NCBI GenBank assembly: GCA_934668875.1
Contig: CAKUON010000006.1
Span: 1-64,000 of the forward strand
Length of the DNA stretch: 64,000 bases
Reading direction: 5' to 3'
Source: an uncultured Collinsella sp.
GTDB lineage: Bacteria; Actinomycetota; Coriobacteriia; Coriobacteriales; Coriobacteriaceae
Position numbers and translations under genes: made by a program. The notes beneath the pieces were generated by a model that worked only from the letters and a program-made list of their open reading frames with translations, was not told the origin of the DNA and did not search any database. Shown here one piece after another: positions 13,049 to 48,240 of the stretch (the stretch's first letter is position 1; every line of letters starts with the position of its first letter).

Positions 13049-13385
13049 AAGATCACCTTCACCCTTGCAAGATCGGAATAGCGTGCATGCCCTCCGCGCG
13101 GGAATTTGGCCCGCGCGGAGGACCGCTATCGTCGGACGCATGTTAACGTACTCTACTTTTTCTAGCTGCAGCTCTTCTGCTCTATAAGTCCATACGGCAC
13201 TACCGTTCACGGTCGAATTTCGACCGATTACCAGATTCTCAAAAAGTAATAAGCGTTGTGTTATGAGTACGTTAACATAGCCCTTAACGTGCGGCATCGT
13301 AGATGCTGAGTTCACACCGCTTCAAATTGTTAACGTACTCATAACGACGCAAAACTCCCCTGTTCGCGCCAAAGAAAGGACCCTC
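13049..13385. promoter_or_regulatory. LacI-1 / galK divergent control region
   Basis: No gene is seen. The region holds GTTAACGTACTC at 13142-13153, its reverse complement at 13265-13276 and another forward copy at 13329-13340. The last two extend to a 17-bp inverted pair (13261-13277 and 13328-13344). The central ACGT with partial dyad is typical of LacI-family operators. A copy of the 21-bp-spaced ACCGTTCAC repeat lies at 13202-13231. The galK ribosome binding site is AAAGGA at 13375. Confidence 0.8.
13202..13231 (+). promoter_or_regulatory. 21-bp-spaced direct repeat (ACCGTTCAC / ACCGATTAC)
   Basis: ACCGTTCAC at 13202-13210 and ACCGATTAC at 13223-13231 are spaced by exactly 21 bp with a TTTCG-ending spacer. 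This matches the motif found upstream of several other sugar operons in the window. Confidence 0.6.
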
Positions 13386-14591
13386 ATGACCGCCCCCGAC
13401 GAAAAGACGCTCGCCACGCTCACCAAGCTGTTTGAGGAGGAGTTTGGCCCCATCGGCGACCGCCAGGTGCTCTACGTGCACGCGCCCGGCCGCTCCGAGA
13501 TCAGCGGCAACCACACCGACCACGAGGGCGGCCACGTTATCGCCGGCTCGCTCGACGTTGCCGTTGACGGCATCGCCGTGGCAACCGACACCAACAAGGT
13601 CCGCGTTGCCGACGAGGGCTATCCCACCTTTGAGATCACGCTCGACACGCTAGACGTTCAGGAGTCCGAGAAGGGCACGTCCGCGAGCCTCGTCCGCGGC
13701 ATGGCCCACGAGGTCGCAGCCCTGGGCGTTGAGCCCCACGGCTTCGACTTTGCCTTCACCTGCTCCGTCCCCTCGGGCGGCGGCCTTTCCAGCTCCGCTG
13801 CCGTCGAGGCCGCATACGGCCGCGCTATGGAGACGCTCTGGGGCGCGCCCGCCATTGAGCCCGTCGCGCTCGCGCAGATGAGCCAGCGCACCGAGAACAA
13901 CTACTACGGCAAGCCCTGCGGCCTGATGGACCAGGCTGCCGTGTGCCTGGGCGGCCTTGCCTACATGGATTTTGAGGACCAGGCTCAGCCTAAAACTCAG
14001 AAGCTCGAGCTCAACTTTGAGGATCACGGCTATGCGCTCGTGCTCGTTAAGGTGGGCGCCGACCATGTGGCAGCTACCGACGACTACGCTGCCGTTCCGC
14101 GCGAGATGCAAGACGTTGCCGCCGAGTTTGGCAAGGCACGTCTGTGCGAGGTCGACGTTGCCGACTTTGATGCCAAGCTGCCCGAGCTGCGCGCCAAGCT
14201 GGGCGACCGCGCCTGCCTGCGCGCCGTTCACTACTGGTACGAGAACGGCCTGGTCGACAAGCGCTGGACGGCTCTTAACGCCGGCGACATCGACCAGTTC
14301 CTGGTCCTGACGCGCGAGTCCGGCGCCAGCTCTGCCATGTACCTGCAGAATGTCGTTGCCAAGCTGGGCTCCGAGCAGCCCTCCATGTATGCCTTGGCGC
14401 TGGCCGAGCACGTGCTCGACGGTCGCGGCGCCGTTCGCATCCACGGTGGCGGTTTTGGCGGCACCATTCAGGCCTTCGTGCCGCTCGATTTGGTCGACAC
14501 TTTCATTGCCAAGATGAACGGCTGGCTTGGCGAGGGTTCCGCCCGTCACTACGCTATCTCTGACAAGGGGGCATACGCGGCATGGCTGTAA
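13386..14591 (+). CDS. galK: Galactokinase
   Basis: A 401-residue GHMP-family galactokinase that phosphorylates galactose to galactose-1-phosphate with ATP (Leloir pathway, cytosol). The galactokinase signature appears as GRSEISGNHTDHEGG near residue 35, the GHMP ATP-binding loop as PSGGGLSSSAAVE near 136, and the C-terminal glycine-rich motif as RIHGGGFGGTIQAF near 357. The ATG at 13386 follows AAAGGA. Its 3' end overlaps galT by 10 bp. Expression is probably controlled by the divergent LacI-1 through the GTTAACGTACTC sites. GalE is not in the window. Confidence 0.96.
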   Translation: MTAPDEKTLATLTKLFEEEFGPIGDRQVLYVHAPGRSEISGNHTDHEGGHVIAGSLDVAVDGIAVATDTNKVRVADEGYPTFEITLDTLDVQESEKGTSASLVRGMAHEVAALGVEPHGFDFAFTCSVPSGGGLSSSAAVEAAYGRAMETLWGAPAIEPVALAQMSQRTENNYYGKPCGLMDQAAVCLGGLAYMDFEDQAQPKTQKLELNFEDHGYALVLVKVGADHVAATDDYAAVPREMQDVAAEFGKARLCEVDVADFDAKLPELRAKLGDRACLRAVHYWYENGLVDKRWTALNAGDIDQFLVLTRESGASSAMYLQNVVAKLGSEQPSMYALALAEHVLDGRGAVRIHGGGFGGTIQAFVPLDLVDTFIAKMNGWLGEGSARHYAISDKGAYAAWL

Positions 14592-16210
14592 TGACCGACG
14601 TGCGCGAGGCCGCGCAGAACCTGATCGAGTACGCCATCCACCGGTCCATGATCGGACAGGACGACCGCATCTGGGCCTACAACACCATTCTGGAGTGCAT
14701 TGGCGCCACGGGCCCCGCGCTCGACATGGCCTGGGCGCTGCAGACTGAGAAGATTTCGCTTCTGCACCCCGATACCCTCCCCGACTTTGATCTGGAGGGC
14801 ACGCTCGCCGCGCTTTCCGAGACCGCCGTCGCCAACGGTGCCGCCGAGGACACGGCGTCGGGCCGCGACCGTATCGCCATGCGCATCATGGGCGCACTTA
14901 TGCCGAGGCCTTCGGTTGTAAACGAGGAGTTCAATGGGCGCATGGGCGTCAACGAGCCCCGCGCCGCGACCGACTGGTTCTACGGCCTGTGCTGCGACGC
15001 CGGCTATGTGCGCCGCGCCGCCATCGCGCGCAACATCAAATGGAGCACCCCCACCAACTGGGGCGATCTCGAGATAACCATCAACCTGTCCAAGCCCGAG
15101 AAGGACCCGCGCGACATTGCCGCAGCCGGTGCCGCCAAGAACACGGGCGAGAAGTATCCCGCCTGCCAGCTCTGCATCGAAAACGAGGGGTACCCCGGAC
15201 GCTCCGCTGCAGCCGACGGCGGTGCTCACCCCGCTCGCCAGAACCTGCGCGTTATCCCGATCCAGCTCGACGGCGAGCGCTGGGGCTTCCAGTACAGCCC
15301 GTACGCGTACTTTAACGAGCATTGCATTGCCATGAGCTCCGAGCATCGTCCAATGCACGTCGATCGCAAAGGCCTCTCCTGCCTGCTCGACTTTGTGGAT
15401 CTGTTCCCGCACTACTTTATCGGCTCCAACGCCGACCTGCCCATCGTGGGCGGCTCGATCCTGTCGCACGACCACTTCCAGGGCGGCGCGCACGAGTTCC
15501 CGATGATGCACGCGGCCGAAGTCTCGCAGTTTAGCGTGCCCGGCTTTGACCAGGTCACCGGCACCGTGCTGCAGTGGCCGCTCTCGGTGCTGCGACTGCG
15601 CTCGCACGACCGAGCTCAGCTGCTCGATGCCGCCGAGAAGATCATTCTCGCCTGGCGCGAGTGGACCGACGAGTCCGTGGGCGTCATCGCGCACACGGCC
15701 GACGGCGTGGCGCACAACACCGTGACGCCCGTCATCCGCCGCGTGGACTCCCGCGGCAACGCCGGCGGCGAGATCTACGAGGCCTACCTGGCACTTCGCT
15801 GCAACATTACGACCGACGAGCATCCGCTGGGCGTGTTCCATCCGCATGCCGAGTATCACCACATTAAGAAGGAGAACATCGGCCTGATTGAGGTCATGGG
15901 CCTGGCCATTCTTCCGCCGCGCCTGGTCCCCGAGCTCGGCGCCGTCCGCGAGCACCTGCTGGCCGCCAAGGTCGACACAAGCTACGACCTTGCCACTGCG
16001 CTCGAGGGCGACGACCTTTGCCGCAGCCACGCCGCGTGGGCCCTGGACGTCTTTGCCCGTCGTGCCGATGAGCTCACGGCGGATGACGCCATCGATATCC
16101 TGCACGAAGAGGTCGGCGTGGTGTTTGCCCACGTGCTCGACAACGCCGGCGTCTTTAAGTGGGACGAAGCCGGCCGCGCCGCCCAACAGCGCTTTATCGA
16201 CTCGCTGTAG
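14582..16210 (+). CDS. galT: UDP-glucose--hexose-1-phosphate uridylyltransferase, type 2 (Firmicutes type)
   Basis: A 542-residue GalT of the long type found in Firmicutes and Coriobacteriia, unrelated in architecture to the short HPHPQ-type E. coli enzyme. It exchanges UMP between UDP-glucose and galactose-1-phosphate. Signature segments are SHDHFQGG near residue 298 and HPHAEYHHIKKENIGLIEVMGL near 420. The ATG at 14582 overlaps the end of galK by 10 bp; a second ATG at 14591 overlaps the galK stop and is a possible alternative. A strong hairpin terminator follows at 16259-16296. Confidence 0.95.
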   Translation: MAVMTDVREAAQNLIEYAIHRSMIGQDDRIWAYNTILECIGATGPALDMAWALQTEKISLLHPDTLPDFDLEGTLAALSETAVANGAAEDTASGRDRIAMRIMGALMPRPSVVNEEFNGRMGVNEPRAATDWFYGLCCDAGYVRRAAIARNIKWSTPTNWGDLEITINLSKPEKDPRDIAAAGAAKNTGEKYPACQLCIENEGYPGRSAAADGGAHPARQNLRVIPIQLDGERWGFQYSPYAYFNEHCIAMSSEHRPMHVDRKGLSCLLDFVDLFPHYFIGSNADLPIVGGSILSHDHFQGGAHEFPMMHAAEVSQFSVPGFDQVTGTVLQWPLSVLRLRSHDRAQLLDAAEKIILAWREWTDESVGVIAHTADGVAHNTVTPVIRRVDSRGNAGGEIYEAYLALRCNITTDEHPLGVFHPHAEYHHIKKENIGLIEVMGLAILPPRLVPELGAVREHLLAAKVDTSYDLATALEGDDLCRSHAAWALDVFARRADELTADDAIDILHEEVGVVFAHVLDNAGVFKWDEAGRAAQQRFIDSL

Positions 16211-16258
16211 CACGCGGGCCCGGACGCTCGTGCCCAACAAATAGCGCCTACACGACAA

Positions 16259-16296
16259 CGGCGCCCGCCGGCAACATCGCCGGCGGGCGCCGTTTT
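16259..16296 (+). terminator. galKT terminator
   Basis: A perfect 14-bp stem CGGCGCCCGCCGGC/GCCGGCGGGCGCCG with a 6-nt loop is followed by TTTT. Confidence 0.9.
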
Positions 16297-16328
16297 CTGA
16301 TGCAAGGGTAGCTAGTTTGCACCAAAAC

Positions 16329-16367
16329 AAGGAGTGTCCCAAACTGCCGGCAGAAAAGGAACGTCCC
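16329..16367 (+). repeat. 39-bp dispersed repeat with CTGCCGGCAG palindrome, copy 1
   Basis: The unit runs AAGGAGTGTCCC, AAACTGCCGGCAG, AAAAGGAACGTCCC. An identical copy lies at 17840-17878 on the other side of the DUF4143 ATPase gene and a diverged copy at 22415-22453. No terminal target duplication was recognised. Confidence 0.85.
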
Positions 16368-16387
16368 CAGGTGCCGACCTAAACCCA

Positions 16388-16475
16388 CACATTATTCGAT
16401 GGAAAAACGTGGTTTTCTCCCACATTATTCGATGGAAAAACGTGGTTCACTCCCACATTTTCCGATGGAAAAACC
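16388..16475 (+). promoter_or_regulatory. 33-bp tandem repeats upstream of the DUF4143 ATPase
   Basis: Two nearly identical 33-bp units (16388-16420 and 16421-16453, starting CACATTATTCGATGGAAAAA) and a diverged third (16454-16475) end about 40 bp before the ATPase start codon. Phased repeats placed here look like operator sites or a transcription-control region for the ATPase gene. Confidence 0.65.
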
Positions 16476-16514
16476 AAAACAGTCTTATACTAACCATGAT
16501 CGTTAGGAGGCAGT

Positions 16515-17816
16515 ATGCAGCGACAGCTAATGGACGAACTCATCGCTTGGAAATCTAGAGCAAACCGCAAGCCCCTCCTGCTTAAGGGGGCCCGCCAGAC
16601 GGGAAAAACCTGGCTTCTCAACGAATTCGCAGGCCAGCAGTATCAAAACGTCATCCGTTTTGACTTTATGCTCGAACCGGGCGCACGTTCGCTGTTCGAC
16701 GGAAGCCTTGACCCCAAACGCATCATCTCCCAGATAGAGCTCCTGCGCGGCCAGACCATAACGCCGACAGACACACTCATCATCTTCGACGAAATCCAAG
16801 AGGCACCGCGTGGCATCACCTCGCTCAAATACTTCAACGAGCTGGCGCCGGAATACCATATTGTGGCAGCCGGTTCCTATATGGGACTCGCGCTCCGACG
16901 CGAAAACGAGTCGTTCCCCGTCGGCAAAATCGACCAGCTCACCATGCGCCCCATGGGGTTTGTCGAGTTCGTTCGTGCCGTCGATGGCGATCCGCTCGCA
17001 GATGCCATCCTTGCCGCAGGCATGGACCTGCTGGCAAACGTTTCCGAAAAGCTCGAGCGCTTGCTCAAGGAATACCTCGTTGTCGGTGGCATGCCAGAAG
17101 CTGTCTCCGCTTTCGCCGCCTCCCACGATTTCATCGAGGCCCGCAGGCTTCAGCAGCAAATCATCGAAGCTTACGAATCCGATTTTGGCAAGCATGCGCC
17201 AGCCCGCATCGTCGAGCGCATGAGGCTGGTTTGGAAATCCCTTCCCGGCCAGCTCGCAAAGGAAAACAAGAAGTTCGTCTACGGCGCGCTTCGTCCCGGG
17301 GCGCGCGCACGCGATTTTGAGGAAAGCCTCCAGTGGCTCATGGACTATGGAATCGTTCATAAGGTACCACGTGTTTCCGCCTTAAGAGCACCGCTCACAA
17401 GCTACGAGGATCTCTCGGGCTTCAAGCTGTTCTGCATCGACACCGGCATCCTCGGAGCACTCTCCGGCCTCTCGCCGGCCATTGTTCTGAACGGGCCCGC
17501 CGTTTTTACGGAGTTCAAAGGCTCGCTGACCGAGCAATACGTCGCACAGGAGCTTTTGCTCCAAGGCAAAACTCCCGCGTATTGGTCATCCTCCTCCGGC
17601 AATGCAGAGACTGACTTTGCCATCGACCATGCGGGGACCGTGCTTCCGCTCGAGGTCAAGGCGGCAGAGAATCTCAAAGCAAAGAGTCTGAGGATTGCCT
17701 GCGAGAAGTTCAAGCTCGAGCGCTGCGTGAGAACATCGTTAGCGGCATATAGAGACGAGGGCACGCTCGTCAACATACCGCTCTGGGAGATTGGGCAAAT
17801 CGACAAACTGGCATAG
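16515..17816 (+). CDS. AAA_14/DUF4143 family ATP-binding protein
   Basis: A 433-residue protein of the large prokaryotic family combining an N-terminal AAA_14 ATPase with a C-terminal DUF4143 domain. Walker A is KGARQTGKTW near residue 24, Walker B is LIIFDEIQ near 88, and a sensor-like AAGSYMGLALR follows near 117. The C-terminus contains ETDFAI and PLEVKAAEN near residues 367-383, which resembles a PD-(D/E)xK nuclease-like core. The function of the family is not established; members are common on genomic islands and often occur singly. It is preceded by 33-bp tandem repeats and bracketed by identical 39-bp repeats, consistent with a mobile or stress-related cassette. The ATG follows TTAGGAGGCAGT. 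Confidence 0.88.
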   Translation: MQRQLMDELIAWKSRANRKPLLLKGARQTGKTWLLNEFAGQQYQNVIRFDFMLEPGARSLFDGSLDPKRIISQIELLRGQTITPTDTLIIFDEIQEAPRGITSLKYFNELAPEYHIVAAGSYMGLALRRENESFPVGKIDQLTMRPMGFVEFVRAVDGDPLADAILAAGMDLLANVSEKLERLLKEYLVVGGMPEAVSAFAASHDFIEARRLQQQIIEAYESDFGKHAPARIVERMRLVWKSLPGQLAKENKKFVYGALRPGARARDFEESLQWLMDYGIVHKVPRVSALRAPLTSYEDLSGFKLFCIDTGILGALSGLSPAIVLNGPAVFTEFKGSLTEQYVAQELLLQGKTPAYWSSSSGNAETDFAIDHAGTVLPLEVKAAENLKAKSLRIACEKFKLERCVRTSLAAYRDEGTLVNIPLWEIGQIDKLA

Positions 17817-17839
17817 GCGCTGTGGGGGGGGTGCCCCGC

Positions 17840-17878
17840 AAGGAGTGTCCCAAACTGCCGGCAGAAAAGGAACGTCCC
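17840..17878 (+). repeat. 39-bp dispersed repeat with CTGCCGGCAG palindrome, copy 2
   Basis: Identical over 39 bp to 16329-16367, in the same orientation, 24 bp after the ATPase stop codon. The two copies therefore bracket the gene as direct repeats. Confidence 0.85.
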
Positions 17879-17895
17879 TATCTGCCGCATCAAAC

Positions 17896-17959
17896 GAGCG
17901 TGGAAAATCTCCCACTTTGGGCTCGTATGGGCACCAAAAGTGGGAGATTATCCACGCTC
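17896..17959. terminator. Long hairpin downstream of lacC and the ATPase gene
   Basis: A 23-24-bp arm pair reading GAGCGTGGAAAATCTCCCAC and its near-perfect complement is separated by 17 bp. It lies between two convergent genes (ATPase and lacC-1). It may terminate transcription in both directions, or be a repeat element. Confidence 0.6.
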
Positions 17960-17981
17960 ATTCTATTAGGAGCCGCAACCG

Positions 17982-18917: not shown

Positions 18918-18973
18918 GTTGAACTCCTGTTTCCGGGGCACGATGTGTGCGACCCCAAACATACGATAGCTCT

Positions 18974-19855: not shown

Positions 19856-19973
19856 AGGAGCCTTCCCTTTCTTACGCCAGCCCGTCGAGTCAATTGGGCC
19901 GATAGAAAACCGGCCCGCGCCCCTCACAGAAACGCGAGCCGTCAACGGACTAGTTAATTACGCCGGATACCCG

Positions 19974-20561: not shown

Positions 20562-20990
20562 TTAGGCCATCTTGTTGAGCATGTCGACACGGATCTGGTG
20601 ACGACCGCCGGCGTACTGGGCGCGCAGGAACTCGCGAGCGATCTTCTTGGCGACCTCGGTGCCCACGACGCCCGGGCCCATGGTGACCATGCGCGAACCG
20701 TTGTGCTCGCGGGTCATATAGGCGGAGCGCTCGTCGGAAATGTTGGCGACGACCATGCCCTTCATCTTGACGGCGGCCATATAGGAACCGACGCCGTACT
20801 TATCGAAGGCAAAGCCCTGGGAATCCTTGTGCTCCAGCAGGTCCTTGGCGACGGCGGTCGCGGAGTCGACAAAGTCCGCGGCAGGGGTCTCGGAATAGTC
20901 GACGACCTCGTGACCGTCGGCGATGAGCATCTCCTTGATGGACTCCTTCATCGACATACCGTCGGCATCGGAAGCGATTACAACCCTCAT
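20562..20990 (-). CDS. lacA: Galactose-6-phosphate isomerase subunit LacA
   Basis: A 142-residue LacA subunit. It begins MRVVIASDADGMSMKE and carries the FDKYGVGSYMAAVKMKGMV segment in place of the RpiB cysteine motif, as expected for the non-cysteine subunit. It pairs with LacB to make the heteromeric isomerase. The ATG follows AAGGAGGATGTC. As first gene of the operon it sits below a 305-bp control region with LacR-like and 21-bp-repeat sites. Confidence 0.95.
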   Translation of the reverse strand: MRVVIASDADGMSMKESIKEMLIADGHEVVDYSETPAADFVDSATAVAKDLLEHKDSQGFAFDKYGVGSYMAAVKMKGMVVANISDERSAYMTREHNGSRMVTMGPGVVGTEVAKKIAREFLRAQYAGGRHQIRVDMLNKMA

Positions 20991-21100
20991 GACATCCTCC
21001 TTGAGAGATACGCAGGTGCGTAGTTTCTGTTTGGAAGTGTTGAATCGCGTTCAGGTCCGGGCATCTGAATGTGCGGTTCTTCACTGTTCATGTTTATTTG

Positions 21101-21114
21101 AACACATTCGAACA
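21101..21114 (+). promoter_or_regulatory. Candidate LacR site AACA-N4-CGAACA, copy 1
   Basis: AACACATTCGAACA lies 111 bp upstream of lacA. The same ten fixed bases recur at 23035-23048 (before lacF) and 35110-35123 (before the DeoR-2 gene). This points to control by DeoR-2. Confidence 0.55.
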
Positions 21115-21225
21115 GCGACTGCAACAACTATTTGTTTGTCTTTGTTCTTTTTTGAACAATTACCGTTCACGGGTGTTTGCCGACCGTTTGGGCCTGACGG
21201 AGGCATGGACGGTCACGCGCTCAAC

Positions 21226-22526: not shown

Positions 22527-22865
22527 TTAGGCGAGCTTGGCCTCGAGATCGGCGATACGCTTGTAGGCATCGATGGTAAAGCGGGTCTGCTTCTCCAGGA
22601 TCATGGTGGTCATAAGGGTGTCCTGAGCATGAGCCATGATGAAGGTCATCTCCATCTCGCCGCCGCCGGCCTCCTGCGAAAGCAGCTTGGTCTGCGTGTC
22701 GTGGGCACCGATGAGAGCGTCGCTGGCATCCTTGTGCAGCTGCTCGGCCTTCTCAAAATCACCCTCGCGGGCAGCATCGAGTGCAGCGAGCAGGTCGGTC
22801 TGGGCGTCACCCGCGTATGCGACGATCTCGAATCCAACCATCGAGATTTCTTCTTTGGTTGCCAT
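22527..22865 (-). CDS. lacF: PTS lactose/cellobiose-family IIA component
   Basis: A 112-residue IIA of the lactose family. It passes phosphate from HPr to the IIB domain of LacE. The phosphorylated histidine is H79 in IMAHAQDTLM. The two helices before it are typical of the three-helix bundle. It is the only lactose-type IIA in the window and must serve both LacE proteins, unless other copies exist elsewhere. The ATG follows GAAAGGAACG. Upstream are the AACA-N4-CGAACA motif and a 21-bp-spaced ACCGTTCA repeat on the same strand as the gene. Confidence 0.94.
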   Translation of the reverse strand: MATKEEISMVGFEIVAYAGDAQTDLLAALDAAREGDFEKAEQLHKDASDALIGAHDTQTKLLSQEAGGGEMEMTFIMAHAQDTLMTTMILEKQTRFTIDAYKRIADLEAKLA

Positions 22866-22989: not shown

Positions 22990-23019
22990 ATGAACGGTCG
23001 ATTTTAGCCTGTGAACGGT
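22990..23019 (-). promoter_or_regulatory. 21-bp-spaced direct repeat upstream of lacF
   Basis: On the minus strand ACCGTTCAC (23019-23011) is followed at exactly 21 bp by ACCGTTCAT (22998-22990), with a spacer ending AAAATCG. The site is about 125 bp above the lacF start. Confidence 0.65.
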
Positions 23020-24084: not shown

Positions 24085-24440
24085 AGGTCGATCTTTCTAT
24101 GTCAACGATGCCATCGCGGGCATCCCAACAGACAAAATGAACGCCTTCAAGTATATCCAACGCCTCCTCCGCCATACGCTCACCACCCAAAACCTACCGT
24201 TCACCGACAATCCTGCGTCCCCGAACGGCTTTTGTCGCCCAAATGTTAACGTTGCCATTGTGCAAACACAGAGCCACCGGGCGGCTCAAACGTTTACGCG
24301 CAAGGAATCGACGGTCCACAGGCACAGGGGCCACCGGTTCGCGTCTTTTTTTGTGTCACAAAATGGCAACGTCAACATTTTGGCAAACAAGGTCCAAACG
24401 TTACCATCGTTGCTAACCCACCGACTCTTAGGAGCTTTGC
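24085..24440. promoter_or_regulatory. LacI-2 / lacE-1 divergent control region
   Basis: No gene is seen. It contains a 21-bp-spaced repeat at 24175-24204 (TACGCTCAC then ACCGTTCAC) and the LacI-2 operator candidates at 24242-24259 and, inverted, at 24362-24379. A partial third ACGTT-containing site lies near 24396. The lacE-1 ribosome binding site is TTAGGAGC. Confidence 0.75.
24242..24379. promoter_or_regulatory. Inverted pair of LacI-2 operator candidates
   Basis: AATGTTAACGTTGCCATT (24242-24259) and, on the other strand, AATGTTGACGTTGCCATT (24379-24362) differ at one base. They are 120 bp apart, a spacing that would permit looping. Confidence 0.7.
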
Positions 24441-26213
24441 ATGGAGCAACTCATCGCCACCATCGAAAAGGGCCAGCCCCTTTTCAACGCGATCGCCCGC
24501 AACAAGTACCTCAAGGCGATCCGCGACGGCTTTATCTCCGTCATCCCCATCATCATCTTCTCGTCCATCTTCTGCCTGGTGGCCTCGGTCCCCAACATCT
24601 GGGGTTTCTACTGGCCCGATGACATCAACAACGCCCTGTGGAAGTGCTACAACTACTCCATGGGCATCCTGGCCATCGCCTGCGCTGCCACCACCGCCAA
24701 GCACTTCGCCGACGCTCAGAACCGCGATCTGCCCAAGAACAACCAGATCAACTTTATTTCCTGCATGTGCGCGGCCATCATCGGCTTCCTGCTGCTCTCG
24801 AGCGACACCATTTCCACGGACGTCGCCAGCGGCTTCAACACCACCTACCTTGGCTCCAAGGGCCTGTTGACCGCCTTCATCGCTGCGTTTGTGACCGGCA
24901 TCATCTACAAGTTCTTCATTAAGCGCAACATCACCGTCAAGATGCCCGAGCAGGTTCCGCCCAACATCTCGCAGACCTTTAAGGACATCATCCCCTTCTC
25001 CGTCTGCATCACCGTCTTTTGGGTCTTTGACATCGTCTTCCGCTCTGCCTTTGGCTTCTGCTTTGCCCAGGGCGTCATCCAGGTGTTCCAGCCCCTGTTC
25101 ACCGCCGCCGACGGCTACATCGGCCTCGCTGTGATCTACGGCGCCATGAGCCTCTTCTGGTTCGTCGGTGTCCACGGCCCCTCGATCGTCGAGCCTGCCA
25201 TCGCCGCCGCCCTCGTTGCCAACATGACCGACAACCTGGCTGCTTACCAGGCCGGTCAACACGCTTCTGCCGTCCTGACGCAGGGCGCCCAGTACTTCGT
25301 CGTCTGCATGGGCGGCACCGGCGCCACGCTCGTCCTCGTCTTTATGTTCTGCTTCCTGGCTAAGTCCCAGGAGATGCGTGCGGTCGGTAAGGCCTCCATC
25401 GTCCCGGTCTGCTTCGCCGTCAACGAGCCGCTGCTGTTCGCCGCGCCCATCGTGCTCAACCCCGTCTTCTTTGTCCCGTTTGTCTTTGCCCCGATCGCCA
25501 ACGTCTGGATCCTCAAGGTCTTTATCGACTTCCTGGGCATGAACGGCTTTATGTACACCCTGCCTTGGACCGTCCCCGGCCCCATCGGCACCATCATGGG
25601 CCTGGGCTTCCAGCCGCTCGCCTTTGTGATGCTCGCCATCATCCTGGTCGTCGACTTCCTTCTGTACTACCCGTTCTTCCGTGCCTATGACGCCCAGAAG
25701 TGCGCCGAGGAGGCCGAGATCTCCCAGGAGGAGCTCGCCGCCAAGAACGCCGAAAAGGCCGCCAAGCTCAACGATGCCTTCCAGGGCAAGACCGATGCCA
25801 AGAGCGTTGCAGACGGCGCTGCCGCCGAGGCCGTGAAGGCCGACGCCCCCGCCGCCGCAGCCCCCGCTGCCGAGGCCACGGCCGCCAGCGACCTCAACGG
25901 CAAGCGCGTGCTCGTGCTCTGCCAGGGCGGCGGCACCTCGGGCCTGCTCGCCAACGCGCTGGCCAAGGCCGCCAAGGAGCGCGGCATCGATCTGGAGACC
26001 GCTGCCGACGCCTACGGCAACCACGTCGACATGCTCCCTGACTTTGACCTGGTCGTCCTGGCCCCGCAGGCCGCGAGCTACCTCGCCGACCTGCAGAAGG
26101 ACTGCGAGCGCGTGGGCAACAAGTGCGTCGCCTGCCGCGGCAAGCAGTACATCGAGCTCTCCCAGAACGGCGACAAGTCTCTCGCCTTCGTCTCCGAGCA
26201 GCTCTCCCTTTAG
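24441..26213 (+). CDS. lacE: PTS lactose-family IICB (LacE-1)
   Basis: A 590-residue fused IIC-IIB transporter of the lactose family. The IIC membrane domain (about 1-420) has the family motifs FVGVHGPSIVEP near 237 and FAVNEPLLFAAP near 326. An alanine-rich linker with low complexity (about 430-485) joins it to the IIB domain, whose phosphorylated cysteine is C494 in VLVLCQGGGTSG. It imports a beta-galactoside and phosphorylates it at C6 of galactose. The ATG follows AGGAGC. lacG-1 follows after a 196-bp gap holding the second copy of the structured element. Confidence 0.94.
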   Translation: MEQLIATIEKGQPLFNAIARNKYLKAIRDGFISVIPIIIFSSIFCLVASVPNIWGFYWPDDINNALWKCYNYSMGILAIACAATTAKHFADAQNRDLPKNNQINFISCMCAAIIGFLLLSSDTISTDVASGFNTTYLGSKGLLTAFIAAFVTGIIYKFFIKRNITVKMPEQVPPNISQTFKDIIPFSVCITVFWVFDIVFRSAFGFCFAQGVIQVFQPLFTAADGYIGLAVIYGAMSLFWFVGVHGPSIVEPAIAAALVANMTDNLAAYQAGQHASAVLTQGAQYFVVCMGGTGATLVLVFMFCFLAKSQEMRAVGKASIVPVCFAVNEPLLFAAPIVLNPVFFVPFVFAPIANVWILKVFIDFLGMNGFMYTLPWTVPGPIGTIMGLGFQPLAFVMLAIILVVDFLLYYPFFRAYDAQKCAEEAEISQEELAAKNAEKAAKLNDAFQGKTDAKSVADGAAAEAVKADAPAAAAPAAEATAASDLNGKRVLVLCQGGGTSGLLANALAKAAKERGIDLETAADAYGNHVDMLPDFDLVVLAPQAASYLADLQKDCERVGNKCVACRGKQYIELSQNGDKSLAFVSEQLSL

Positions 26214-29061: not shown

Positions 29062-29135
29062 TACTTCTCCAGTCGGTTTCCTGTCGCTCGTTTTCTGCGT
29101 TCTAGCATACACTACCTGCTCAACTGATAAATCAA

Positions 29136-29165
29136 CCGTTAACCGGACAATATCGACCGCTCACC
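29136..29165 (+). promoter_or_regulatory. 21-bp-spaced direct repeat upstream of lacE-2
   Basis: ACCGTTAAC (29136-29144) and ACCGCTCAC (29157-29165) are spaced by exactly 21 bp, and the spacer ends AATATCG. Confidence 0.6.
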
Positions 29166-29337: not shown

Positions 29338-31095
29338 ATGGACGCCATCGTAAAGATGCTCGAAAAGCATCAACCGTTCTTTGAGAAAATCTCGAGGAAC
29401 ATCTACCTCCAGGCCATCAAGGACGGATTCCTTGGGTGCATGCCCATCGTCCTCACCTCTTCGATCTTCCTGCTGATCGCCACGCTTCCCGGCGTGGTCG
29501 GCATCACGTTGCCTCAACCGCTCATCGACTGGTGCAACAAGCTGTACAACTTCACCATGGGTGTCATGGGTATCATGGTCGCCGGCACCACCGCCAAGAA
29601 CTTCACGGCATCCATGAACCGCCGTATGCCCGCCGGCAAGGTGCTCAACGACGGCTCCACCATGGTTGCTGCCCAGTGCAGCATGCTTTTGCTCGCCGTT
29701 ACGCAGTTCACCACCAAGCTCGACGGCTCCGAGCTCTCGGTCTTCGATTGCACCAGCATGGGTACGCGCGGTCTGTTCTCGGCCTATATCGCCGCGTTCA
29801 TTACCGTGTGGGTCTATAAGTTCTGCGTCTCGCGCGATCTGACCATTAAGCTGCCCAAGGAGGTTCCGGGCGCCATCGCTCAGAACTTCCGCGACATTAT
29901 CCCCTTTGGCGGCGCCGTCATCATCTGCGGCATCATCGATGTCGTCGTGCGCAACCTCATGGGCGTTCCGTTCTCCGAGCTGCTTATCAAACTGCTCTCC
30001 CCGCTCTTTACCGCTGCAGAAACCTATCCTGGCCTTATCCTTATCCAGGCAGCCACCGCGTTCTTCTGGTTCATTGGCGTCCACGGCCCCTCGATCGTCC
30101 AGCCGGGCATCGACCCCATCCGTCTTGCCAACCAGGCCGAGAACCTGCAGGTTCTGCTTGCCGGTGGCCACCCTGCCCACTCCCTCACCTTTAACATGTC
30201 GCTCGTGGGTGAGTTCGGCGGCACCGGCGCCACGTTCATCGTGCCGCTTCTGCTGATTCTCTTTATGAAGTCCAAGCAGCTCAAGGCCGTCGGTAAGGCC
30301 TCGATTGTTCCTGTTGCCTTTGCTGTCAACGAGCCGCTGCTCTTTGGCGCTCCCATGATCCTCAACCCCTACATGCTCATCCCCTTTGTTGCCGCCGGCT
30401 GCGTCAACGTGAGTGTCGCCAAGTTCTTTATCGATAACGTGGGCATGAACGGCTTCTCCTTCGTGGTGCCTTGGGCCACCCCCGCCCCCATCGGTATCTT
30501 CATCACCACGAACTTCCAACTTATTGCCCTGGTATTTGTCGCGATCATCATCTTGCTGGACGCCATCATCTACCTGCCGTTCTTGAAGGCATACGATAAG
30601 CTGCTCTGCGACCAGGAGGCCGAGCGCGCTGCCGAGCTGGGTCTCGAGTCCGATGGTGCTGCCACCATCGCTGCCAGCACCCCTGCGCCCGCCATCGAGC
30701 CGACCGCCGCTGCCGTCGACAGCGAGCCTGTCGCCGATCAGCCCGAGCCCGCCGCCGACGCATCCGCTAAGAAGGACGTCGATGGCCTGAAGGTCCTCGT
30801 CCTGTGCGCCGGCGCCGGCACCTCTGCCATGCTTGCCAATGCCATCAAGGAGGGTGCTGCACAGACCGGAGAGAACATCGCCTCCTCCGCAGGTGCCTAT
30901 GGCCAGCACACCGCCATCATGGATCAGTACGACGTTATCGTGCTTGCCCCGCAGGTCCGTAGCTACTACAACGACATGAAGGCCGACACCGATCGCCTGG
31001 GCATTAAGCTGCTCGCCCCGCGCGGCAAGGAATATATCGACCTTACCCGCGACCCCGCTGGCGCCATCAAGTGGCTCCGCGAGAACCTCGACTAG
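29338..31095 (+). CDS. lacE: PTS lactose-family IICB (LacE-2)
   Basis: A 585-residue IICB paralogue of LacE-1. IIC motifs FIGVHGPSIVQP near residue 241 and FAVNEPLLFGAP near 326 are present. The alanine/glutamate-rich linker (about 430-480) precedes the IIB domain with C490 in VLVLCAGAGTSA. It probably imports another beta-galactoside or lactose analogue; the different LacI regulator suggests a different inducer. Its operon with lacG-2 contains no lacF, so it depends on LacF from 22527-22865 or elsewhere. Confidence 0.93.
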   Translation: MDAIVKMLEKHQPFFEKISRNIYLQAIKDGFLGCMPIVLTSSIFLLIATLPGVVGITLPQPLIDWCNKLYNFTMGVMGIMVAGTTAKNFTASMNRRMPAGKVLNDGSTMVAAQCSMLLLAVTQFTTKLDGSELSVFDCTSMGTRGLFSAYIAAFITVWVYKFCVSRDLTIKLPKEVPGAIAQNFRDIIPFGGAVIICGIIDVVVRNLMGVPFSELLIKLLSPLFTAAETYPGLILIQAATAFFWFIGVHGPSIVQPGIDPIRLANQAENLQVLLAGGHPAHSLTFNMSLVGEFGGTGATFIVPLLLILFMKSKQLKAVGKASIVPVAFAVNEPLLFGAPMILNPYMLIPFVAAGCVNVSVAKFFIDNVGMNGFSFVVPWATPAPIGIFITTNFQLIALVFVAIIILLDAIIYLPFLKAYDKLLCDQEAERAAELGLESDGAATIAASTPAPAIEPTAAAVDSEPVADQPEPAADASAKKDVDGLKVLVLCAGAGTSAMLANAIKEGAAQTGENIASSAGAYGQHTAIMDQYDVIVLAPQVRSYYNDMKADTDRLGIKLLAPRGKEYIDLTRDPAGAIKWLRENLD

Positions 31096-42108: not shown

Positions 42109-42165
42109 ATGCACTCCTTGCTTCTAAAGCAGTTAACTGTGGTGATGCTTATACCCAGCTCACGT

Positions 42166-42211
42166 AAAACAAAAAGCGCCCGCCCGCCGTTATGAGCGGA
42201 CGGGCGCCCTT
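42166..42211 (-). terminator. agaS terminator
   Basis: On the minus strand GGGCGCCCGTCCGC pairs with GCGGGCGGGCGCTT (one bulge), followed by TTTGTTTT. Confidence 0.85.
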
Positions 42212-42225
42212 ACAGGGGGACGCGA

Positions 42226-43392: not shown

Positions 43393-43453
43393 TTCTAATA
43401 CCTCTCTCTAGAAGTAAACCTCTGACGTGCAATTATACACTTCGGTTGGTTAT

Positions 43454-43469
43454 CTGGTAGTAACCAGTT
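43454..43469. promoter_or_regulatory. GntR operator candidate before agaS
   Basis: TCTGGTAGTAACCAGT contains the dyad CTGGT-AGTA-ACCAG. It matches 47745-47760 in front of the PTS operon at 13 of 16 positions. It lies 62 bp above the agaS start. Confidence 0.78.
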
Positions 43470-43506
43470 AAATGCAAAGAATCATCACATGCAAACGTTG
43501 GGGACA

Positions 43507-44238
43507 CTAGTCGTTGCGCTGGTGATAGACCTTGTATTTAAACTGATCGGCACGAGCAACCGAGAGCGTATACTCCACAACCTCGTTTGACTCGTTATAC
43601 GTCGTACGGACCAGATCGAGCACAGGCGAGCCCTCGACGATTCCCAAAAGATGGGCATCGGTGGGACGAGCTATGCTCGCATAGAATTCCTCTTCGGCCA
43701 CGCGTATCTTTTGCTGAAAGTCTTGTTCGATCACGTCGTAAAGCGGCTTGCGCTCAAGAAGCGGACGCTTTAAAGACAAAAACTGACGAACCGGTAGATA
43801 GCTGCGTTCGACCATCATGGGCATGTTGTCGGCAGAACGAAGGCGCTTGAGCTTAAATATGCGATCGCCAATACGCAATCCCATATGCTCAGCCAGATTT
43901 TTATCGGCCTCCATCTCGCAAAACTCGAGAATCGTAGTCTCTGGATCGCGACCCATCGCACGCATCTGCTCGGTAAAGCTGTAGGACTGCATAAGGTTGG
44001 TTGCCTTTGCCGAACGGTCGGTCACAAAGGTACCGCGACCGTGCTGCCGAACCACCAGTCCCAGACGTTCCAGCTCCTGCAGAGCCAGACGCACCGTGGT
44101 GCGCGAGAGACCATAGCGCTCAGAAAGTTCGCGCTCGGAAGGAATCATGTCACCGGCGTGATATTCGTGGTCAATCTTTTCGGTCAGAATATCGACCAGC
44201 TGATCGTACAGCGGTTGCTTACGCGCTCCGATCGCCAT
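43507..44238 (-). CDS. GntR family regulator (HutC/NagR type, UTRA domain)
   Basis: A 243-residue regulator. The N-terminal GntR winged helix (about 8-75, with ELSERYGLSRTTVRLALQELERLGLVVRQHGRGTFV) precedes a UTRA ligand-binding domain (about 95-235). Members such as NagR/YvoA and AgaR2-like proteins sense amino-sugar phosphates. It lies between the PTS operon and agaS. The shared 16-bp dyads before both transcription units are its likely sites, and a weaker match (44264-44273) lies in front of its own gene. The ATG follows GGGAGGATAGG. A fragment of the GGGGAC/ACTAGTCGTTG repeat overlaps its stop codon. Confidence 0.92.
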   Translation of the reverse strand: MAIGARKQPLYDQLVDILTEKIDHEYHAGDMIPSERELSERYGLSRTTVRLALQELERLGLVVRQHGRGTFVTDRSAKATNLMQSYSFTEQMRAMGRDPETTILEFCEMEADKNLAEHMGLRIGDRIFKLKRLRSADNMPMMVERSYLPVRQFLSLKRPLLERKPLYDVIEQDFQQKIRVAEEEFYASIARPTDAHLLGIVEGSPVLDLVRTTYNESNEVVEYTLSVARADQFKYKVYHQRND

Positions 44239-44323
44239 CCTATCCTCCCATTTACTCGAACTCGGCTACTACCTAGGGTGTTTAGCATTATCTGTCTGCT
44301 GCACCCCGAATCATCAAGAAAAC

Positions 44324-44357
44324 AAAAGCCGCGTGCCCTTTCGAGCACGCGGCTTTT
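44324..44357. terminator. Terminator at the end of the PTS operon
   Basis: AAAAGCCGCGTGC pairs perfectly with GCACGCGGCTTTT. It lies between the IID stop codon and the GntR promoter region, usable on the minus strand. Confidence 0.9.
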
Positions 44358-44423
44358 AACATACACATGGCTTAAGGGGTCGGGGTGTGAGCCGCGTAGG
44401 GACACACCCCTCAAGCTAGAGCC

Positions 44424-45506
44424 TTACCAGATGCTCGGCCAGAGACCAAGCGGGCCAGCGCCCAGGATGCCCAGGACGAAGAGCAGGAGAATGCCCTTGG
44501 TCGGGGTCCAGCTGTGCTTAGCGAACATGTAGTAAAGCAGCAGCGTAAGCATAAGCGGGACGAGCTTGGGGACGATGGTGTTGAGGGTGTCGGCAACAGA
44601 GAAGTTGACCGGGGTCTCAGTAACGGTACCGTAGGTCACGGACTCCATGCCGTTGCCCAGATCGGTGACGCCGCACTCGACAGCGTTGCCGTCTGCATCG
44701 GTGGCGGTGAGGGCGTTGCCGTCCTCATCGGTCATGGCCATGGTGCCAGCCTCGGCGGTCTCGGTGTTGATGCCGTCCATACCGGTGAAGTTCTCGGCAT
44801 CCTTCTCGGAGACGATCACGGTGTTGGCGGAAAGACCACGAGTGGTGCCGTTGGGGATCTGGAGGTTGATCTGGGTGCCACCCATGGTGACGACCAGGCA
44901 ACCGACGACGAAGACGCCCATGATGGAAGCGGCACGCGTGAAGGCCTGCATGTTGGCGGTCAGAGCGTCAATAGCGCTGGTGCCAAGCTTGTAGGACCAG
45001 TTCATGAGCCAGAAGCGCAGAGCGAACTGGACGGCGTTGAAGATCACCAGGAAGATGATCGGCGCAGCGGCGTTGCCGTTGATGGCCATGTTGGAGGTGA
45101 TGCCGGCCGTGATAGGCACGAGCGTCAGCCAGAACAGGGCGTCACCGATACCACCGAGCGGGCCCATTGCGGCGACGCGGACGGCGCGGATCGTGGGGAT
45201 GTCAACCTTGTTCTGCTCGAGCGAAAGCACGATGCCCATAACGAAGGTGACGAGGAACGGGTGGGTGTTGAAGAACTCCAGGTTGTGGCTCATGGAAGCC
45301 GCGAGGTCGTTCTTGTTGGTGTGGATCTTCTCCAGACCGGGGATGATGGAGTAGAGCCAGCCAGCGGCCTGCATACGCTCGTAGTTGAACGATGCCTGCA
45401 GGAAGCAGGAGCGCCAAGCCATCTTGTTGAGGGTCTTCTGGTCGAGCTGCGGAGCAGGAGTGAGATCCTCGTAGTGCTCCGGGATCACATACTCATTAGA
45501 TGCCAT
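44424..45506 (-). CDS. PTS mannose/fructose/sorbose-family IID component with a large loop insertion
   Basis: A 360-residue IID subunit of a mannose-family PTS, longer than the usual 270-300. Residues 1-210 follow the family (DQKTLNKMAWRSCFLQASFNYERMQAAGW near 22-50, AAMGPLGGIGDALFWLTL near 112). Residues about 215-300 are an acidic, glycine- and threonine-rich insert with DEDGNALTATDADGNA-like pseudo-repeats, probably extracytoplasmic. Residues 305-360 form the closing membrane part. The ATG at 45506 overlaps the IIC stop by 11 bp and follows GGAGG. It is the last gene of the operon. Confidence 0.92.
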   Translation of the reverse strand: MASNEYVIPEHYEDLTPAPQLDQKTLNKMAWRSCFLQASFNYERMQAAGWLYSIIPGLEKIHTNKNDLAASMSHNLEFFNTHPFLVTFVMGIVLSLEQNKVDIPTIRAVRVAAMGPLGGIGDALFWLTLVPITAGITSNMAINGNAAAPIIFLVIFNAVQFALRFWLMNWSYKLGTSAIDALTANMQAFTRAASIMGVFVVGCLVVTMGGTQINLQIPNGTTRGLSANTVIVSEKDAENFTGMDGINTETAEAGTMAMTDEDGNALTATDADGNAVECGVTDLGNGMESVTYGTVTETPVNFSVADTLNTIVPKLVPLMLTLLLYYMFAKHSWTPTKGILLLFVLGILGAGPLGLWPSIW

Positions 45507-46296
45507 CTTCGAAGTCACCTCCGTCAGAAACAGCTGCACCCTTCAGCTCGGTCTGCTGCTGGAAGTCCCAGAAAGCGATGCCGAAGCCGATGAGAGCAAG
45601 GATGAGCAGGGCAGGGGTTGCCAGAGAATCGTTGGCAACGGTGATGAGCGCGAGGCCAAAGCCCATGAGGAAGAAGCCCCACATATCGCGGTTCATCATA
45701 ACCTTGAGCAGGACGGCGAAGCCGACGAAGCGCATCATGCCGCCTGCAGCGGAGAGACCGGTCTGCAGCCAGGTCGGGATGGCGGAAGCGATGGTCTGAC
45801 CGATGGTGGCGCCAGCGATGAAGAACAGGGTGACGACGACAGCGAAGATCAGGCCAAGCAGAGCCATGGCGAAGTAGTTCAGACGCTCGATACCCTTGGT
45901 GTCAGCGTTGTGAGCCATGTTGTCCGCGGAGGACATGAGCGGCGACATAAGGGTGAAGACGAGGGTAACGCCGAGCTGACCAAGCAGAGCGAACGGGATG
46001 GCAAGGCCGACAGCCGCGTTGGGCTCGAGGCCCGTGGCGATTGCGAGAATGGCTGCCATGATGCCGCCGATAACGGGGTTAGGCGGCTGAGCGCCTCCGA
46101 TCGGCATGTTGCCGATCGTCATGAGCTGATAGGTACCACCCACGAGAAGACCGGTGTTGAGGTCGCCAAGGATAAGACCGATGACGGCGCCGGTGACGAT
46201 GGGCTGATAGAGAGACTCGAGGAAGTTGAACTGGTCGATTGCCGCGATGAACGTGACGATGAAGACCAGAGCGACCTGGATGATCGAGTATTCCAT
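45496..46296 (-). CDS. PTS mannose-family IIC component (GalNAc/galactosamine type)
   Basis: A 266-residue membrane subunit that forms the sugar channel together with IID. It has the family features NFLESLYQPIVTG near residue 24, GGTYQLMTIGNMPIGGAQPPNPVIGG near 53 and several hydrophobic segments up to residue 245, ending in an acidic tail. The gene context with agaS and nagA suggests N-acetylgalactosamine or galactosamine as the sugar, but mannose-family IIC proteins cannot be assigned from sequence alone. The ATG follows AAAGGAGGAG. Confidence 0.92.
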   Translation of the reverse strand: MEYSIIQVALVFIVTFIAAIDQFNFLESLYQPIVTGAVIGLILGDLNTGLLVGGTYQLMTIGNMPIGGAQPPNPVIGGIMAAILAIATGLEPNAAVGLAIPFALLGQLGVTLVFTLMSPLMSSADNMAHNADTKGIERLNYFAMALLGLIFAVVVTLFFIAGATIGQTIASAIPTWLQTGLSAAGGMMRFVGFAVLLKVMMNRDMWGFFLMGFGLALITVANDSLATPALLILALIGFGIAFWDFQQQTELKGAAVSDGGDFEDGI

Positions 46297-46385
46297 CTTG
46301 CTCCTCCTTTCAAAATGTATGTACGCACTTGGATATCACGTACAGAATGTCAGGGTTTCACTCCTGACAACGTGGATCACGAGGA

Positions 46386-46868
46386 TTACGAGAAGAGCTT
46401 GCTCGTATCCTCAACAGGCGTGCTCGGAACGCGCCTGATCTCCAACTCCACCCCCAATTCCTGCAGCTCTTTAAACGCAGCGACATCCTCGTCGTTAACT
46501 GCGACGGAGGTGGCGACTTGGCGCTTTCCTTCCGACATGTGCATGTTGCCGATGTTTACCTTCTTTATAGGCACACCGCCCTTGACGAGCGTAAGCACGT
46601 CTTCCGGTGTTTCGGCCACGATGAAGATCTTCTGGCGCGGGCTCGCCTTGCCAATGACGTCGATGGTCTTCTGCAGGGAGAAGAAACGCGTAGCGACGCC
46701 GGTGGGAGCGGCCATCTTCATGAGGTTCTGGCGCATGGTGTTGGTCGACACGTCGTCGTTGGCGACGAGGATGAGGTTGGAGCCCAGGGTGGAGTTCCAC
46801 TGGGTGGCAACCTGACCATGAATCAGTCGGTTATCGATGCGGGTAAGAAGAATGTTGGGTTCTGCCAT
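46386..46868 (-). CDS. PTS mannose-family IIB component
   Basis: A 160-residue IIB. The phosphorylated histidine is H17 in DNRLIHGQVA. It takes phosphate from IIA (47186-47629) and passes it to the sugar in the IIC-IID channel. It is the functional counterpart of the histidine-less paralogue at 36658-37140. The ATG follows GAAAGGAAGC. Confidence 0.94.
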   Translation of the reverse strand: MAEPNILLTRIDNRLIHGQVATQWNSTLGSNLILVANDDVSTNTMRQNLMKMAAPTGVATRFFSLQKTIDVIGKASPRQKIFIVAETPEDVLTLVKGGVPIKKVNIGNMHMSEGKRQVATSVAVNDEDVAAFKELQELGVELEIRRVPSTPVEDTSKLFS

Positions 46869-46904
46869 GTTGATCAGCTTCCTTTCGTTGATTGCTGACG
46901 ACAG

Positions 46905-47186
46905 TTACTTGATCTCCTGAATCGCGTAACGCGAAACATCTACGACGGCACCGGATCGAACTTTGATCTGGACCTTTTCGCCTTCGATGCCTTTGACGGT
47001 TCCGTAGATACCGCCGGCGAAAAGAACCTCCTGACCCGGCTTGAGCTCGGTGTGAAGCTCTTTAAAGTACTTCTGCTTCTTCTTCATGTTGATCTGGGAC
47101 CAGATGGTGTAAATAACACCCATGATGACAAGAAGACCTAAAAGAGCGATCGAAGAGCTCAGGATGCTGGCTCCAAAGTCGGCCAT
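46905..47186 (-). CDS. yajC: YajC-like protein within the PTS operon
   Basis: A 93-residue protein with one membrane helix (about 8-28) and the YajC core FKELHTELKPGQEVLFAGGIYGTV. YajC is an accessory subunit of the SecDF complex. Here the gene lies between PTS IIA and IIB, with its ATG overlapping the IIA stop codon by one base. A YajC-like gene in mannose-family PTS operons is also known from streptococcal hyaluronan-utilisation loci, so this is a recurring association whose role is unclear. It could help insert or stabilise the PTS membrane subunits. Confidence 0.88.
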   Translation of the reverse strand: MADFGASILSSSIALLGLLVIMGVIYTIWSQINMKKKQKYFKELHTELKPGQEVLFAGGIYGTVKGIEGEKVQIKVRSGAVVDVSRYAIQEIK

Positions 47187-47629
47187 TAGATGCCGTCCTC
47201 GTCGCCGAAGATATCCTCTTCCTCGGCACCAGCGACGGAGGCGACCGTCTGGGCGGTGATGCCCGTCTGGCCAACGGTCACGGCCTGCTCGCCAAGCTCG
47301 GCAAGCGTAGCGTTGCCGCGGAGGAACAGGAGCTCAATAACCATGGGAAGGTTGGTGCCGGTCAGAACCTCGACGTTGTCGACATCCTGGGCGATCATCA
47401 TCGACTGGTTGAAGGGGGTACCGCCAAGCAGGTCGGTAAAGACGAGCACGCCATCGCACTCCTCACGCATAGCGGTAATGGCGGCGCGAAGATCCTCACC
47501 GTAGGAGGCAGCCTGGTCGCCCTCGAAAGGAACGACGGTAAAAGCGGGCTGGTCGCCAGCGACCATAGCGATAGCGCTTGCAAGGCCGGGTGCGAACTGT
47601 CCATGACCGGTAAGAATAAAGCCAACCAT
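47186..47629 (-). CDS. PTS mannose-family IIA component
   Basis: A 147-residue IIA. The active histidine is H9 in ILTGHGQFAPG, and the second conserved segment is TDLLGGTPFN near residue 65. It accepts phosphate from HPr. It is the first gene of the IIA-yajC-IIB-IIC-IID operon and overlaps yajC by one base. The ATG follows GAAGGGAA. Confidence 0.94.
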   Translation of the reverse strand: MVGFILTGHGQFAPGLASAIAMVAGDQPAFTVVPFEGDQAASYGEDLRAAITAMREECDGVLVFTDLLGGTPFNQSMMIAQDVDNVEVLTGTNLPMVIELLFLRGNATLAELGEQAVTVGQTGITAQTVASVAGAEEEDIFGDEDGI

Positions 47630-47744
47630 TCAAATTTCCCTTCCGAAGGTGTGTACGATCTGAGTTCGATGGTTTTCGGAAGCCAGCGGGCGGGTGCCCT
47701 TAAAGCTTCTTTGAAAGCGTTCTTTGAAGACCAGTGGTCTCTCA

Positions 47745-47760
47745 ACTGGTAGTAACCACG
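47745..47760. promoter_or_regulatory. GntR operator candidate before the PTS operon
   Basis: ACTGGTAGTAACCACG shares the CTGGTAGTAACCA core with the site before agaS. Confidence 0.75.
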
Positions 47761-47832
47761 TGACGTGTTGTTGTCACTATATCACCCCAGAAGAGGTCGC
47801 TTTCGTTGATTCATACAGTAAAACGTTTTTGC

Positions 47833-47862
47833 ACCGCTCACGGCAAAAAATCGACCGTTTAC
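47833..47862 (+). promoter_or_regulatory. 21-bp-spaced direct repeat upstream of the PTS operon
   Basis: ACCGCTCAC (47833-47841) and ACCGTTTAC (47854-47862) are spaced exactly 21 bp, with a spacer ending AAAATCG. Confidence 0.6.
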
Positions 47863-48240
47863 CGCTCATTAACACTTCTACCTGCGGTTTTGAAACCGTT
47901 TCGAAATGATTGGGCGAAAGATCGGAACTTTCTTTGCGTCTAAACAACGCAGGGCGGCTAAAAATAGCTTGTAGAAAAATTGCAGGTCATTATGAAGATT
48001 TGTGAATTGGTCTTTTTGACTTAATACCAGTTTGAACCAGTTTCGAAAATATCGGTGAACGGTAGTTTTTGACCGTTCACCGGTCATTTGCAATCGTTTA
48101 CAGGGTGTTTTCCCATATGAATTGAGGAAAGTTACCAGGCCCTCAGCGTTCGTGCTGCCCCGTCCGTCGCGGTCTACAGGGCTAACGATATGGCACCGTG
48201 GGGCCACACGTATGCCAATTCTGGTCTAGCAGAGCCAAAT

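Follow-up and report, generated by a model that had tools for sequence, protein, structure and literature searches.

A 21-bp-period direct repeat upstream of catabolic operons in Collinsella is a predicted LytTR-type response-regulator site

Introduction

LytTR domains are described as binding two 9-bp direct repeats at a 12-bp spacing, and sites of the AgrA/SilA/ComE type in Gram-positive bacteria as lying upstream of the promoter, with paired 9-10-bp direct repeats around an A/T-rich spacer of 11-12 bp (PMC2766830). In Escherichia coli, the oligonucleotide used for the LytTR regulator BtsR carries ACCGCTTAC-N12-ACCACTCAG (PMC4847170), a pair that we also found in the E. coli btsT (yjiY) promoter. 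BtsR and its GAF-containing LytS-type kinase, BtsS (together also known as YehT/YehU), are described as having a narrow set of targets for pyruvate uptake (PMC7730263). Here we examine a direct repeat of the same 21-bp period in a 64,000-nt stretch of DNA from an uncultured Collinsella sp. (contig CAKUON010000006.1, positions 1 to 64,000; hereafter the window), where seven such pairs had been listed in a preliminary description.

The arrangement and sequence of the half-sites lead us to predict that these repeats are LytTR-type response-regulator sites, with RR1 probably the regulator and the catabolic operons behind them its targets for activation. RR1, which is encoded outside the window, has a receiver and a LytTR domain and adjoins a LytS-like kinase, HK1 (GAF, His_kinase and HATPase domains), and in this it resembles BtsS/BtsR. 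The repeat arrangement is also common to the AgrA/SilA/ComE-type sites, although the half-site sequence differs; the regulators of that group named in PMC2766830 serve quorum sensing and bacteriocins, whereas the sites described here precede catabolic genes. Within the parts of the open-licence literature available to us, we found no published regulon of this kind for Collinsella or the Coriobacteriia.

Results

Paired half-sites recur at a single spacing

We scanned the window for two ACCGTTCAC-like 9-mers with at most three mismatches in total, at offsets from 10 to 44. Nine pairs were found at offset 21 and three at the other 34 offsets (one each at 14, 28 and 38). Shuffling the window in 200-base blocks (n = 60) gave no pair at offset 21 and a maximum of two at any offset. 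The nine pairs comprise the seven sites of the preliminary description, all of which are present, together with 23011 and 48055 on the minus strand; these last two share a half-site or fall inside the named regions.

Relatives supplied genome-wide counts, which cover 43 genomes of the genus and 246 of the class. For these we used a strict pair, ACCGYTNAY-N12-ACCGYTNAY, with the backward pattern as control. In the genus, 144 strict pairs are present in 39 of the 43 genomes, and the backward pattern is absent (0 matches). The 12-bp spacer, which falls in the LytTR range of 11-13 bp, compares with 24 pairs over 28 other spacers: 8 over the ten spacers from 2 to 11 and 16 over the eighteen from 13 to 30, or 0.8-0.9 per spacer, with 4 of the 16 representing a third half-site beside an existing pair. 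Persistence of the 21-bp phasing in related genomes had been set beforehand as a test of the original observation, and it held.

Across the class, strict pairs abound in the window's own family, f1 (166 sites, 44/48 genomes), are commoner than chance in f2 (49 sites, 33/61 genomes), and are rare in f3 (3/52 genomes) and in the remaining class genomes (12/85), compared to seven matches of the backward control in all 246 genomes. We infer that f1, f2 and f3 are Coriobacteriaceae, Atopobiaceae and Eggerthellaceae, respectively.

In the window, the pair ACCGTTCAC-N12-ACCGATTAC (13202..13231, plus strand) lies 155 bp upstream of galK and recurs before galK of the genus genome G003. The lacF site, ACCGTTCAC-N12-ACCGTTCAT (22990..23019, minus strand), lies 125 bp upstream of its gene, and the positions 23019 and 22998 first given for it are the 5′ ends of halves 23011-23019 and 22990-22998. 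On the plus strand, TACGCTCAC-N12-ACCGTTCAC (24175..24204) lies 237 bp upstream of lacE-1 and ACCGTTAAC-N12-ACCGCTCAC (29135..29164) lies 174 bp upstream of lacE-2, the latter starting one base earlier than first reported (29135/29156, not 29136/29157). Three further plus-strand pairs are a weak ACCGTTCAC-N12-ACCGTTTGG (21162..21191) upstream of lacA, ACCGCTCAC-N12-ACCGTTTAC (47833..47862), 204 bp from the start of a phosphotransferase system (PTS) EIIA gene, and ACCGTTCAC-N12-ATCGTTTAC (48072..48101) in the upstream region of the PTS genes. That the pairs stand before most of the sugar operons is a fair description, except that the repeat points away from the gene at 21162 (lacA) and at 47833 (PTS). 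A candidate at 60297 on the minus strand, with halves ACCGTTTGC, is covered by no aligned relative and was left out.

The half-sites form a short conserved block around a variable spacer

Merging 113 sites by similarity gave 70 site families, with two E. coli loci left out. In these families, the half reads ACCGYTYA(C/T) followed by C/G and then mostly G, and the middle of the spacer has an A/T core; the core letters of the half are largely set by the search pattern, whereas the spacer and flank letters are free of it. The conserved block measures 9-11 bp and the spacer is variable, which gives the two ~9-bp direct repeats expected of a LytTR-type site. C/A then T/G predominate at the last two spacer positions, so the earlier impression that spacers end in WWTCG does not generalize.

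Site-region alignments retained 20 (lacF), 26 (lacE-1) and 4 (lacE-2) of 37 loci plus the window, the rest being unmatched or not spanning. At the lacF site, the halves are 99% identical to the window, the spacer 69% and the remaining sequence 89%, a footprint-like contrast. The contrast is weaker at the lacE-1 site, where the two halves show 91% and 94%, the spacer 83% and the rest 80%. The site at 21162 is poorly kept: of 20 aligned relatives, 10 have an intact first half (ACCGTTYAC), and none has a consensus second half, already described as the weaker one. Such poor conservation is what might be seen if the pairs were chance occurrences or a dispersed repeat without a regulatory role. We consider this explanation close to negligible in view of the spacing controls and shuffles, the conservation of the lacF halves while the spacer diverged, and the intergenic placement described below.

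Sites are intergenic and phased with promoter-like elements

We called genes with a codon-usage script in two complete genus genomes, G003 and G025. Sites with at most two mismatches number 36 in G003 and 37 in G025, compared to 7 and 5 for the backward control. When at most one mismatch is allowed, 39 of 40 sites in the two genomes are intergenic, and the random spread through coding regions that had been named as counting against a control site is not borne out. A gene start in the same direction is present within 350 bp of 30 of these 39 sites; 5 have one in the opposite direction only and 4 have neither.

With the one site inside an open reading frame excluded, we scanned the 39 sites for promoter elements at 93 offsets from the site start. 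Hexamers that differ from TATAAT in no more than one letter occur at offset 73±1 in 7 of the 39 sites and at offset 62±1 in 6, compared to a mean of 0.95 elsewhere. The peak at offset 73 has a Poisson probability of 6e-5 at one offset, before allowing for the 93 offsets. Among the 70 site families, which may include distant orthologs, 11 have TANNNT at offset 73, compared to a mean of 1.3. The presence of -10-like elements at two distances one helical turn apart suggests an activator, and hence that the site acts by activation.

RR1 is the probable regulator

A LytTR protein is present in all 43 genus genomes and in 10 of 10 other site-bearing genomes, where that of G230 is a weak match and not RR1. 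The BtsR half ACCGCTTAC also occurs, exactly, among the half-sites of the genus. Judged against the general LytTR consensus, (A/T)(A/C)(A/C)GTTN(A/G)(T/G), the half ACCGTTCAT fits, while halves with the commoner final C, or with C at position 5, depart from it. Of the 246 class genomes, 232 have a match to RR1 itself at E ≤ 1e-60 and 243 have one at E ≤ 1e-15, although the 11 matches weaker than 1e-60 may be other response regulators; identity is 58-100% among the matches listed. As nearly all class genomes match, we dropped the presence or absence of RR1 as an undiscriminating test.

A second LytTR regulator, RR2, has the same domains as RR1, is 42-46% identical to it, and could bind the sites alone or together with RR1. 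RR2 adjoins a kinase, HK2, an amino-acid permease and, in G025, an amidohydrolase. In one G025 locus (L091, 665-6055), a strict site lies 140 bp before the permease-amidohydrolase-HK2-RR2 run, in the same direction, and would fit RR2 autoregulation. However, no site with at most two mismatches is listed near the RR2 run of G003, and RR1 is the only LytTR match in four genus and two neighbouring-family genomes that carry strict sites (G004, G013, G029, G041, G158 and G239, with 6, 1, 2, 1, 1 and 3 sites, respectively). We regard a role for RR2 as improbable.

The preliminary description had likened the repeats to the binding mode of AraC-type activators. AraC-family activators do use direct repeats ~21 bp apart, with half-sites of ~17-18 bp, and one to four AraC domains are present in most genomes tested. 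The conserved block here is 9-11 bp with a variable spacer, shorter than an AraC half, and the search for the AraC domain PF12833 found none in 3 of 10 site-bearing genomes (G013, G015 and G228), which makes a common AraC regulator unlikely. That search, which covered PF12833 and not PF00165, found one match each in G003 and G025. Taken together, an AraC-family activator on adjacent direct repeats is very unlikely.

Several observations weigh against RR1 as the activator bound at these sites. G230, with four strict sites, lacks an RR1 match and has a single weak LytTR match; its assembly is in ~100 contigs at 96% completeness, so that a gap is possible. Conversely, RR1 occurs without a strict site in G017, G022, G027, G147, 28 of 61 f2 genomes and nearly all f3 genomes, and its presence does not predict sites. 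The RR1 operon lacks a convincing site in the loci scanned, and we rejected autoregulation of RR1 on this basis, a four-mismatch match in G004 lying within the HK1 gene. At lacE-2, no footprint is seen in the four aligned relatives, where the halves are 78% and 94% identical, the spacer 96% and the remaining sequence 91%. For nine of the 39 intergenic sites, no gene in the same direction starts within 350 bp, and the sites of the window itself lack a good -10 element at the favoured offsets (61-64 and 71-74), the best agreeing in 4 of 6 letters.

The sites in G230, and the failure of RR1 to track sites across families, could also mean that a protein of some other DNA-binding family is responsible and that the LytTR likeness is coincidental. 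The half length, the spacer length and, at least in part, the half sequence nevertheless match LytTR sites, and nearly that of BtsR, and we hold this explanation to be unlikely. For f3, RR1 may itself account for the missing sites: six f3 proteins read RDDYAYLQT where those of f1 and f2 read KDDYSC(I/L)YT, in a stretch that aligns weakly with the DNA-contacting loop of AgrA. This sequence difference may explain why f3 has RR1 without sites. Weighing the evidence on both sides, we continue to favor RR1 as the probable activator.

Sites precede a broad set of catabolic genes

Several of the following gene names score under curated cut-offs and denote a family assignment only. In G003, sites with zero or one mismatch precede lacF, lacE-2, galK, argininosuccinate synthase, an EIIA/antiterminator pair, rhamnulokinase, a GH4 gene, a fructose-type PTS, gluconate 5-dehydrogenase, a LicT-like antiterminator, an isomerase of the sulfoquinovose-isomerase kind and a 1128-aa surface protein with an FctA domain. 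Allowing two mismatches adds, in the same genome, sites before both arginine deiminase genes, pyruvate phosphate dikinase, glucuronate isomerase, a C69 dipeptidase and PTSs of the N-acetylglucosamine and beta-glucoside types, though some of these sites are expected by chance.

In G025, the genes that follow zero- or one-mismatch sites are those for arginine deiminase, pyruvate kinase, pyruvate phosphate dikinase, PTS subunits of the mannose and fructose types, an inositol-dehydrogenase-like protein, an amino-acid transporter and AhpC, whose site overlaps an open reading frame; those that follow two-mismatch sites are for carbamate kinase, a beta-glucoside-type PTS, a C69 dipeptidase and the sulfoquinovose-isomerase-kind isomerase. 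Common to both genomes are arginine deiminase, pyruvate phosphate dikinase, the C69 dipeptidase, the sulfoquinovose-isomerase-kind isomerase and PTSs of the beta-glucoside, fructose and mannose types. In f2 genomes, where the neighbouring genes were read partly by eye, sites stand before PTS genes and before genes for solute-binding proteins and a nucleobase permease.

The proposal of a global control site is thus supported and was, if anything, understated, as the site class stands before many transcription units genus-wide. The scope first assigned to it, galactoside and amino-sugar use, does include such operons and is too narrow given arginine deiminase, pyruvate kinase, pyruvate phosphate dikinase and the other PTSs.

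The two arginine deiminase genes of G003 lie in one locus (L038, 3293-4534 and 6383-7624). They are of equal length and share identical first 45 residues, the second matching arginine deiminase; an aminotransferase-like gene lies between them, and a two-mismatch site lies 120 bp before each start.

Genes and additional half-sites in the window

The gene galK (13386..14591, plus strand) encodes a galactokinase-like protein with GHMP kinase and galactose-binding domains that scores under the NCBIfam galactokinase cut-off. On the minus strand, lacA (20562..20990) encodes a galactose-6-phosphate isomerase subunit (NCBIfam NF006380, over cut-off), and lacF (22527..22865) encodes a lactose-type PTS IIA (TIGR00823, 118.5 bits against a cut-off of 136.95). 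Several GAACA/TGTTC repeats, seen by eye at 21060-21160 before lacA, are possibly DeoR-type operators. The genes lacE-1 (24441..26213) and lacE-2 (29338..31095), both on the plus strand, encode lactose/cellobiose-type PTS IICB proteins with PTS_EIIC and PTS_IIB domains, each over the cut-off of TIGR00410; lacE-1 shares 96-97% identity with records of C. aerofaciens and other Collinsella, which places the window in this genus.

The mannose/sorbose-type PTS genes for EIIA, EIIB, EIIC and EIID (44424..47629, minus strand; Pfam PF03610, PF03830, PF03609 and PF03613) have additional half-sites in their upstream region. The stretch 47833-47869 holds three halves, namely the pair 47833/47854 and ACCGCTCAT at 47861, which overlaps the second half. 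The pair is aligned in L006, L018, L027 and L020, and a third half of this kind is also seen in G001, G004, G019 and G031. Farther on, a single half-site ACCGTTCAC (48055..48063, minus strand) faces the 48072 site as an inverted pair; it is kept in L006 and L018, and one base differs in L027. The region 48055-48101 thereby reads as inverted halves GTGAACGGT-N8-ACCGTTCAC and, after them, a third half that forms a direct repeat. The 48072 pair is aligned in L006, L018 and L027, and the whole arrangement is kept in the first two, with small changes in L027.

Discussion

In the mechanism that we propose, HK1 would phosphorylate RR1, and two RR1 molecules would occupy the paired 9-bp halves, which lie 21 bp, or two helical turns, apart around an A/T-rich centre. 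RR1 would then activate promoters with a -10 element about 32-33 or 42-43 bp past the second half-site and thereby raise PTS, lac/gal, arginine deiminase and pyruvate-node operons together, on top of local control by LacI, DeoR, GntR or antiterminators. We infer binding by RR1, its dependence on phosphorylation, and activation rather than repression from the comparisons above. That the cue is related to pyruvate or energy is a guess, made from the targets and by analogy to BtsSR.

The analogy to BtsSR is limited. BtsR is only 33% identical to RR1, and BtsS is 28% identical to HK1 over the GAF and kinase domains. BtsS has a LYT-type multi-pass membrane sensor domain; in contrast, Pfam finds no such domain in HK1. 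The genus sites share with the BtsR site the 21-bp-period direct repeat and the half ACCGCTTAC, but they stand before dozens of units, compared to the narrow target set of BtsSR.

In breadth, the arrangement resembles carbon regulation of the CRP/CcpA type, in which one site class likewise stands before many sugar operons besides local regulators. CRP and CcpA belong to other protein families and bind palindromic sites, whereas here the sites are direct repeats and the regulator is predicted to be of the two-component type. We considered the absence of HPr kinase (PF07475) as a sign of missing CcpA control and set it aside: the kinase was not found in 6 of 6 genomes (G001, G003, G018, G025, G190 and G239), but the control is doubtful, as Bacillus subtilis, which was expected to match, also gave none.

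We tentatively suggest that RR1/HK1 could serve as a master catabolic activator responding to an energy or pyruvate cue in the Collinsella family and the inferred Atopobium-like family, in a role like that of CRP or CcpA, co-activating PTS, lac/gal, arginine deiminase and pyruvate-node genes; we put this broader role at somewhat below an even chance. Collinsella and its relatives are common human gut bacteria. If the proposal is correct, LytTR regulators, known mostly for narrow regulons, would be central to a network that governs carbon and energy use globally in these organisms, and one two-component system would help time their use of lactose, galactosides, amino sugars and arginine. Their feeding behaviour would then be testable through a single 30-bp site and a single regulator.

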